DNA from: Candidatus Tectimicrobiota bacterium
GTDB taxonomy: Bacteria > UBA8248 > JACPRG01
Length of the DNA: 27,149 bases
NCBI GenBank assembly: GCA_016190025.1
Contig: JACPRG010000120.1
Span: 1 to 27,149 of the forward strand
Direction: 5' to 3'
The notes beneath the pieces are model-generated. The model ran no database searches, had not been told where the DNA came from, and saw only the letters and a list, made by a program, of their open reading frames with translations. Positions 1,105 through 20,165 of the stretch are shown one piece after another. The position numbers and the translations under genes were made by a program. Each line of letters opens with the position of its first letter. Position 1 is the first letter of the stretch.

Positions 1105-1548
1105 TCACATGGTCCGGCCGGCGCTCCCGACGAGGCGCGCCACCTCCACGTACCGGAGCCTCACCTCAGACAAGATCTCCCGCAAAAGCCTGTCTTCCTC
1201 CTGGTCCAGGTTTCCCCGGGTCTTCTCTTGGAGGATCGCCAGGATGTCAATCGTCTGCCTCGCGGCGTCCAGCCGGATCTCGGGCTTCCCCTCGACGGGG
1301 TCCGGAATCAGCCCCATGTTGATCAGGGCCATATTGGCCAGCCAGACGATCAATCCGGAAAAATCCATCTGGGGCGCAGCGCCCTGCGGCTGTCCCTTGG
1401 ACGCCCGTCCGGTCGCCGCTTCAGCGGTCCCGGTCTCCGCGGCCGGCTTCGGCTTCCGGACTTCCTCGGAAGACTCCTCCTCCGCCCGCCGGGAGAGCCG
1501 CCGGTCGGTGACAGTAAACCCTTTTCTCTCTTCATCCTCTTCCGGCAT
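1105..1548 (-). CDS. DUF1844 domain protein
   Basis: This encodes 147 residues. The first 60 or so are charged, Ala/Pro/Gln-rich and probably disordered. The conserved core starts at MDFSGLIVWLANMALINMGLIPDP and continues through a helical segment with DAARQTIDILAILQEKT and a terminal EEDRLLREILSEVRLRYVEV helix. This matches the DUF1844 family, whose biochemical role is not established to my knowledge. The apolar helix around residues 62-80 could be a membrane or packing helix. The start is well placed, with GGAGGGAGAGGG upstream of ATG 1548. It lies between dnaJ and rpoZ on the same strand, 144 bp after dnaJ, and is probably co-transcribed with them. Confidence 0.85.
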   Translation of the reverse strand: MPEEDEERKGFTVTDRRLSRRAEEESSEEVRKPKPAAETGTAEAATGRASKGQPQGAAPQMDFSGLIVWLANMALINMGLIPDPVEGKPEIRLDAARQTIDILAILQEKTRGNLDQEEDRLLREILSEVRLRYVEVARLVGSAGRTM

Positions 1549-6524: not shown

Positions 6525-8429
<1,905 letters not shown>

Positions 8430-19319: not shown

Positions 19320-19361
19320 GCCGGGCGATTCAGTTTTCCGGGAGGAGGCGGTCATTTATCC

Positions 19362-19390
19362 TTGAAAAATTGCCGCTTCGGGCCGATATT
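19362..19390 (+). promoter_or_regulatory. Promoter for the structured RNA and DUF3800 gene
   Basis: TTGAAA (19362-19367) and GATATT (19385-19390) are 17 bp apart in an AT-rich patch. Predicted transcription would begin near 19397-19400, just before the first hairpin at 19406. This means the structured region would be the 5' end of the transcript rather than a random leader segment. Confidence 0.55.
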
Positions 19391-19405
19391 TATTTGTGCA
19401 TGGAT

Positions 19406-19493
19406 GCTCTGTAAAGAGCGACCTACATACAGAAAGGTCCCTCCCCGCTGAAAGGACCCCAAGGGGGTCGGCCGAACAGGCTAGGCGGGGAGG
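19406..19493 (+). ncRNA. Candidate structured RNA upstream of a DUF3800 gene
   Basis: Three consecutive structures can be drawn. Hairpin 1 is GCTCT-GTAA-AGAGC (19406-19419), a 5-bp stem with a GNRA tetraloop. Hairpin 2 is GACCT/AGGTC (19420-19424 with 19435-19439) around a 10-nt loop. The third is a three-way junction: a 9-bp closing stem (19440-19448 with 19485-19493) holds an arm GACCCC/GGGGTC (19455-19460 with 19464-19469) and an arm GGCC/GGCT (19470-19473 with 19479-19482) with a GAACA loop. The 3' strand of the closing stem contains GGGGAGG, which could act as a ribosome-binding site and be hidden by folding. Comparative work has reported several RNA motifs upstream of DUF3800 genes (DUF3800-I to -XI in Rfam); I cannot assign this one to any of them. 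Confidence 0.6.
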
Positions 19494-19511
19494 TCACATT
19501 TTGGCATAAGG

Positions 19512-20165
19512 TTGGCTACCCTCCATGTCCACTTAGATGAATCGGGGAATCTCGGATTCTCCCCACGAGACACCAGATATTACGTCTTTGCTGTCGCTTG
19601 GACTTACGATCCCGCGCCCCTTGCCACCGAACTCACTGAAAGCCGCTTTTCCCTCTTAAAGAACGGCCACAACATCGAGGCATTCCACGCTGCCGAGGAG
19701 AGAAAGGAAAATCGCAACACGGTCGTTTCCATTTTGAGTCGCCATGAGAATTGGCAATTTGCTGGAATCGTCATCGAGAAAGCCAAGGTAGACCCGCGCC
19801 ACTACGAACCACACAAGTTCTACCCGAGGTTTGCGACGATCCCGCTGACGGTGGCCTTTAGCCGCGCGCTCCGGTCGACCACAGATCATGTACTCGTCTT
19901 CACCGACGCTCTTCCGATGAAAAAGCACAGGAAATCGGTTGAGAAAGCGATCAAAATAACATGTCGAAAAATGCTGCCGAGAATTCTTCGCTTCGAGTCT
20001 TTCCATCATCACCGGGCAAGCAATGCCTGGATCCAGGTGGCAGATTACTGCTCATGGGCCGTATACCGAAAATGGGAGCATGGCGACGACCGGACGTATA
20101 ATCAACTCCGCTCCTATCTCGTCACCGAAGAGATCGAGTTTTTCAAAAAGGAACCGGTTAAATAA
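19512..20165 (+). CDS. DUF3800 domain protein
   Basis: The 217-residue product starts with the DUF3800 signature strand [13 protein letters not shown] (Asp9, Glu10). It also has VFTDALP (Asp132) and [15 protein letters not shown] (Asp178). The spaced acidic residues resemble an RNase H-like metal site, and nuclease activity is a reasonable inference but unproven. The family is often in mobile or defence-type contexts. The start appears to be TTG 19512; no ATG is in frame near the conserved strand. AAGG abuts it, and a stronger GGGGAGG lies 19-25 nt upstream inside the RNA stem. Codon usage is distinctly AT-richer than neighbours, consistent with horizontal transfer into the gap between the DUF167 gene and mtnA. 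Confidence 0.85.

Follow-up and report, generated by a model that had tools for sequence, protein, structure and literature searches.

A divergent DUF3800-IX-type RNA beside an RNase-HII-like gene, and its lone copies in phages: a possible RNA-gated anti-phage system

The window analysed here, a stretch of 27,149 nucleotides (nt) from Candidatus Tectimicrobiota bacterium (contig JACPRG010000120.1) taken at its full length, contains a gene of the DUF3800 family preceded by a structured RNA. The three-way junction formed by this RNA is real and represents a divergent DUF3800-IX-type RNA, whose relatives adjoin DUF3800 genes in two opposite layouts and are also present in phage records in which no such gene was found. 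We give an even chance to the reading that RNA and gene form a module in which the RNA neutralises an RNase-HII-like toxin or anti-phage protein, the phage RNAs acting as decoys. A wider proposal is more tentative: an RNA-gated RNase-HII-like anti-phage system might operate in several bacterial phyla, and the RNA might have spread in phages apart from the nuclease, as a bare antidote partly placed among transfer RNA (tRNA) genes. In concrete and testable terms, this would connect an orphan RNA class with a protein of RNase H fold and with phage counter-defence.

A covarying RNA junction in front of the DUF3800 gene

The RNA (19433-19505, plus strand), recognised by its Rfam match, by our own models R1 and R2 and by covariation, lies in a 192-bp intergenic gap (19320-19511) directly 5' of the DUF3800 reading frame. 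An initial annotation of this DNA had placed in the gap a promoter, two hairpins and a three-way junction, and its coordinates hold. In an alignment of five sequences, similarity begins abruptly at AAAGGT (19433), the start of the RNA, and runs to the T-run; 5' of this point nothing is conserved except between a close pair of Rokubacteria-type genomes, G001 and G065. The junction (19440-19493) comprises a closing stem P1 of ten pairs (19440-19449/19484-19493; nine had been claimed), the joiner J12 (GAAAG) between P1 and P2, the stems P2 (19455-19460/19464-19469) and P3 (19471-19473/19479-19481) and the joiner J31 (UA). It is followed by a tail with TTTT at 19499-19502, 5 nt past the closing stem, which is the only terminator-like feature between RNA and gene. 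The junction thus stands as drawn, save for the extra pair, whereas the two hairpins upstream (19406-19419, with a GTAA loop, and 19420-19439, plus strand), which the fold of the window predicts, have no similar sequence in the related loci L001, L002, L005 and L009 in the alignment, judged by eye, and from their sequence appear private to the window.

The comparison with the Rfam DUF3800 models that the initial annotation had proposed (E up to 10 over 501 nt) yielded a match to RF02968 (DUF3800-IX) at 19439-19498 which is full length (model positions 1-67 of 67) and scores 27.7 bits (E 0.00097), under the gathering cut-off of 36.8; at the gathering threshold there is no Rfam match in the window. 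The window RNA shares with DUF3800-IX the three-way junction with its conserved joiners (GAA in J12, UA in J31) and the position next to a DUF3800 gene, but because of its score we name it IX-type and not, by the Rfam rule, a member of RF02968. The relatives in L001, L002 and L005, with 33.7-34.9 bits, are likewise under the cut-off. This motif reportedly goes back to Weinberg et al. 2017. To our knowledge, the DUF3800 RNAs in Rfam have no known function, in agreement with the excerpts of the DUF3800 literature consulted, which come from papers other than the motif's source and report neither lone phage RNAs nor a tested RNA function.

The case for the structure is carried by covariation. R1 was built from five window-type RNAs and R2 from nine; the window RNA, which is in both training sets, scores 96.5 and 88.6 bits, respectively, and R2 finds a single copy in the window on the RNA's own strand, a weak minus-strand match (12.0 bits) being the mirror of the RNA. 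The R2 alignment covers 19 bacterial, plasmid and phage RNAs, of which nine had served to train R2. Here 99.2% of 353 pair cells are standard, against 42.8-58.6% in slid controls, both sides have changed in 12 of the 19 pairs, and none of 500 shuffles reaches any of five measures. Since the alignment is fitted to R2 itself, P1 was recounted on a MAFFT alignment of the nine RNAs, where 98.9% of its cells are paired (47.8-65.6% when slid). Paired cells and covariation score were reached here by 0 of 500 shuffles, doubly changed pairs by 26 and pair types by 192. The junction stems, for which a covariation check had been proposed, therefore covary among homologues. Folding energy, taken by itself, supports the structure only modestly: for 19380-19515 z is -3.6, with 0 of 200 shuffles equally stable, and for the 73-nt junction without its surroundings z is -2.7, with 2 of 200.

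Two gene-RNA layouts and lone RNAs in phages

Searches of species genomes turned up five chromosomal relatives of the gene. Three have the RNA before the gene and two, L003 and L004, a weak partial one; G065 carries a further upstream RNA. R1, run over 51 sources, retrieved RNAs beyond its training set (E 2.2e-11 or better) on Phaeobacter and Ruegeria plasmids, in Gordonia phage Kenna and in the Acidobacteriota genome G122, in all of which the RNA occupies the opposite strand and sits at the DUF3800 stop codon or directly past it. R2 adds G352 (24.6 bits), G617 (locus L084, 80.2 bits) and L096, which encodes a protein 80% Kenna-like, with the same layout. Seven relatives (L078, L079, L080, L014, L015, L084 and L096) carry the RNA past the stop codon, on the strand opposite the gene. 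Counted without L096, 20 loci carry an RNA (19 distinct); nine have it upstream and on the gene's strand, 11 (10 distinct) downstream and on the other strand, and in all 20 the 3' end of the RNA faces the gene. In a protein tree of 12 rows, which includes two rows of 43-44 residues and Kenna as a long branch, a supported branch (99/97) sets the upstream-layout type apart, so a single switch of layout suffices. This switch argues that the RNA works in trans. That the RNA is of a DUF3800-associated kind is supported, and it accompanies the gene in both arrangements. When the behind-gene and lone phage RNAs of L014, L015, L078-L083, L093 and L094 (that is, leaving aside L084, L095, L096 and L098) were compared with Rfam, no DUF3800 match was obtained at E up to 3, 5 or 1. 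Beside the first DUF3800 gene of the Ruegeria megaplasmid there is a second, weak DUF3800-like reading frame (L079:4814-5932; 18.7 bits, under the cut-off). There is a 4-base overlap in Kenna (L080:2213-3642) between the DUF3800 gene and the end of the immunity repressor gene, and DUF3800 expression in lysogens is therefore possible.

The RNA is most likely a short independent transcript of about 65-75 nt. The window has the sigma70-like promoter described in the initial annotation (19362-19390, plus strand; -35 TTGAAA, 17-bp spacer, -10 GATATT), which is the top sigma70 match within 120 nt 5' of the RNA. Promoters were scored in 14 upstream stretches, L093-L096 and L098 being left out, with 300 shuffles each. 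The distance from the end of the best -10 box to the first conserved base is 6, 6, 6 and 7 nt for Phaeobacter, Ruegeria, G122 and G617 (0, 3, 4 and 1 of 300 shuffles as high), which gives a well-placed promoter in four of the six downstream-layout RNAs tested. For G001, G065, G002 and the window the distances are 19, 19, 27 and 42 nt (0, 1, 4 and 6 shuffles as high). The L082 promoter was equalled by 1 of 300 shuffles, but its site abuts the RNA inside a gene end. The stretches of G005, Kenna, G352, L081 and L083 gave no convincing promoter (154 to 289 of 300 shuffles as high; G005 240).

Three RNA-pattern scans of viral contigs identified eight distinct contigs. DUF3800 stands beside the RNA in three (L084, L096 and L097, the last with a protein identical to Kenna's) and was not found in the DNA seen of the other five (L081, L082, L083, L095 and L098). 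A search with PF12686 at E up to 10 gave no match in the whole records of L081-L083 or in those of Mycobacterium phage Nebkiss and Corynebacterium phage phi16, both deposited as complete genomes. The Nebkiss RNA (63.3 bits; 92% identical to the Kenna RNA over 62 nt) is a neighbour of tRNA-Asn and tRNA-Trp. In phi16, two RNAs (58.8 and 45.6 bits) fall in a region that carries no annotation and in which ARAGORN predicts five tRNA genes, one with an odd anticodon; both RNA cores end 3 nt before a tRNA, as does that of L098 before tRNA-Asn. The L095 RNA lies between genes that, by eye, resemble head-protein genes. L081 (4149-4670) and L082 (3113-3634) share a non-coding block of 523 bp, 97.7% identical, after different genes; it begins at the RNA's first bases, its remainder is predicted to fold as one domain closed at the right end (L081 z -3.0), and it matched nothing in Rfam or in the phage collection. 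The seven lone records against three with the gene give no frequency, because the survey was uneven, Nebkiss and phi16 having been retrieved by BLAST searches that used lone or Kenna-type RNAs as queries. The window RNA as a DNA query gave chance-level matches in plasmids and none in phages. Protein-pattern searches of the viral contigs found no relative, a result of little weight since at least three contigs there (L084, L096 and L097) hold one. Phage tRNA genes can counter tRNA-cutting defences. The lone RNAs, some of them among tRNA genes, suggest an opponent, and further RNAs that stand unannotated between tRNA genes of phages might likewise be antidotes.

A neutralising RNA and its rivals

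The gene (19512-20165, plus strand, TTG start) encodes a protein of 217 amino acids that matches PF12686 (DUF3800) with 37.9 bits (cut-off 21) and no other Pfam family. Its structure model (predicted local distance difference test score, pLDDT, 90.6) has an RNase-H-like fold with RNase HII as the best PDB match, at only 14% identity; by sequence, no PDB chain is found at E up to 1. The model agrees with the fold part of the earlier suggestion of an RNase H-like nuclease. Among its acidic residues, D9, E10, D132 and D178 are invariant across 60 close homologues, and among remote relatives this set is less strict.

In the mechanism we propose, the RNA would bind the DUF3800 nuclease and hold it inactive; if the RNA were lost, as might happen during phage infection, the nuclease would be freed to cut nucleic acid and stop growth, and phages carrying the RNA alone would supply the neutraliser themselves. 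The data show the folded, covarying RNA, its linkage to the protein family in both layouts, phage RNAs lacking a recognisable gene, and a predicted RNase H fold whose acidic residues are constant in close homologues; that the RNA binds and inhibits the protein, that the protein is a toxic, catalytically active defence factor and that the phage RNAs are decoys is what we infer. A neutralising RNA would explain its position outside a leader, the little room for a guide, a form kept while protein and layout change, the intact RNA beside two damaged DUF3800 genes, and the lone phage RNAs, partly among tRNA genes. The idea of nuclease control, already voiced in the initial annotation, stays conjectural but is now better motivated, by the switch of position and by the lone phage RNAs.

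Two known systems offer parallels, as described in excerpts of the respective papers. In AbiF/RCd22 (RF03085) a single non-coding RNA with promoter and terminator precedes a small toxin gene, and the RNA binds AbiF and neutralises it in cis and in trans (PMC12373285). AbiF differs in its protein, of the Abi_2/AbiD/F family linked to Cas13, and in its RNA, RCd22 having two abiF motifs where the window has one junction. Type III toxin-antitoxin systems such as ToxIN likewise consist of RNA gene, terminator and nuclease gene, and phages escape ToxIN by an RNA mimic, 'pseudo-ToxI' (PMC5086642). Unlike these, the window RNA has no tandem repeats, the protein is RNase-HII-like and not ToxN-like, and the RNA can also be placed 3' of the DUF3800 gene, on the opposite strand.

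The main rival, which we regard as possible and clearly less probable than neutralisation, is that DUF3800 needs the RNA as a functional cofactor which, as scaffold or adaptor, positions the nuclease, the phage copies being dominant-negative decoys or serving partners of their own. The same linkage, layouts and lone RNAs fit it, and excerpts of two papers place DUF3800 proteins with Cas12a2 and in VI-F and V-A2 CRISPR loci, acting beside RNA (PMC10910872, PMC12669027). The two damaged genes with intact RNA are more easily explained by a neutraliser, and there is little guide room, as the junction is nearly the entire conserved RNA and the predicted start is its first base in four loci. An OMEGA-like guide was rejected on the same ground, these four loci having no free 5' segment, and because G001 and G065, at different sites, share most of the RNA-adjacent leader (one pair). 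That the RNA is a cis-acting leader which attenuates or senses in the DUF3800 mRNA is improbable. In the window clade the RNA model does end 6-23 nt before the start codon (start codons entered by hand), with a T-run after the stem, and Rfam classes DUF3800 class VI as Cis-reg; in the seven behind-gene relatives, however, the RNA is outside the mRNA leader, and phage records hold the RNA where DUF3800 was not found. Pure cis-regulation is thus compatible with the 5'-UTR (untranslated region) placement in the window clade and contradicted for the family as a whole. Least probable of all is a DNA or transposition signal, in which case the structure would mark one end of a mobile element and the RNase-H-fold protein would act on that element. 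It would suit the block shared by L081 and L082 and the G001/G065 stretch that recurs as one piece, but this pair has no conserved sequence behind the gene or before the promoter, the promoters fit the RNA start, and two phi16 copies lie among tRNA genes.

Several observations weigh against the neutraliser. The genomic pattern would be identical if the RNA activated the protein. The broken genes of L003 and L004, whose reading frames end after 43 and 44 residues, have weak partial RNAs (R1 24.6 and 11.4 bits), and the gene fragment of G073 has none. No Rfam DUF3800 RNA was found in 29 of 38 other DUF3800 loci, several of which have unlisted RNA-like folds. Convincing promoters are missing from two of the six behind-gene RNAs (Kenna and G352) and, among the lone RNAs, from those of L081 and L083. 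Lone RNAs are scarce (eight RNAs in seven records) and less independent than their number suggests, given the block common to L081 and L082 and a possible relationship between phi16 and L098; the contigs of L081-L083, L095 and L098 may be fragments, with 3.2 of 39 kb covered for L098. The window copy is flanked by housekeeping-type genes (yggU-like and mtnA), and PADLOC has no match in the window. As for the protein, G352 has no Asp at the D132 place and Kenna has it one residue earlier; the probability we assign to neutralisation does not rest on these putative active-site residues.

Mobility of the module and further DUF3800 loci

As had been noted, the gene is richer in AT than its surroundings, with a GC content of 51.5% against 72.3% and 72.8% in the neighbouring genes and 67.0% in the window, from which transfer had been proposed. 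In support of mobility, G001 and G065 have 821 bp in common at 92.4%, a stretch that starts just ahead of the -35 box, ends with the stop codon and lies between unrelated flanks. The window copy itself is not a recent arrival: a Nitrospinota DUF3800 protein and MtnA, the product of the window's next gene, each 78% identical, both come from a 10710-bp contig (a single contig is inferred), and since DUF3800 is probably at the same place there, the locus is probably old in its lineage. In G065 an insert of 1.9 kb, absent from its relatives G062 and G066, holds the DUF3800 module and a ribbon-helix-helix/PIN pair between direct repeats of 81 bp (91%; L029:4892-4972 and 6795-6875), the repeat overlapping the 3' end of a reading frame that by eye resembles a dehydrogenase; a tRNA gene was considered as the insertion site and none was found. 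The DUF3800 gene of G005 is interrupted by a helix-turn-helix and Fic gene pair (L005:5355-6406), which resembles the 'mobile mystery' A/B proteins.

Close relatives of the gene are patchy (4 of 95 genomes of G001's phylum, 3 of 396 of G002's phylum and 1 of 162 of its order), and any DUF3800 was present in 10 of 95 and 44 of 347 genomes. The RNA pattern matched in 3 of 95 genomes, always before the gene; as the reversed control also matched, in 4, the position and not the count is the evidence. A stricter pattern matched in 1 of 396 genomes (control 0) and misses G122 and G352. A whole-genome search with RF02968, in which 150 of 488 candidates were scored, missed the known G001 RNA, and noise ruled out counting from a descriptor scan of the DNA on either side of DUF3800 genes.

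Of 39 further DUF3800 loci, 38 were compared with Rfam (all but L076; L038 and L047 are identical), and nine of these gave RNAs of other DUF3800 classes (L048 weak, E 0.63). RNA-like junctions with T-runs adjoin the DUF3800 genes of L035 (about 1322-1385, plus strand) and L036 (downstream flank) and of L055 and L065 (upstream flanks); they have no Rfam match at E up to 3, are pairwise alike by eye, and are possibly unlisted DUF3800 RNA classes. Finally, L091 (5160-11266) contains the row hsdS, NYN, DUF3800, RNA (opposite strand) and hsdR, which places DUF3800 within a type I restriction locus.
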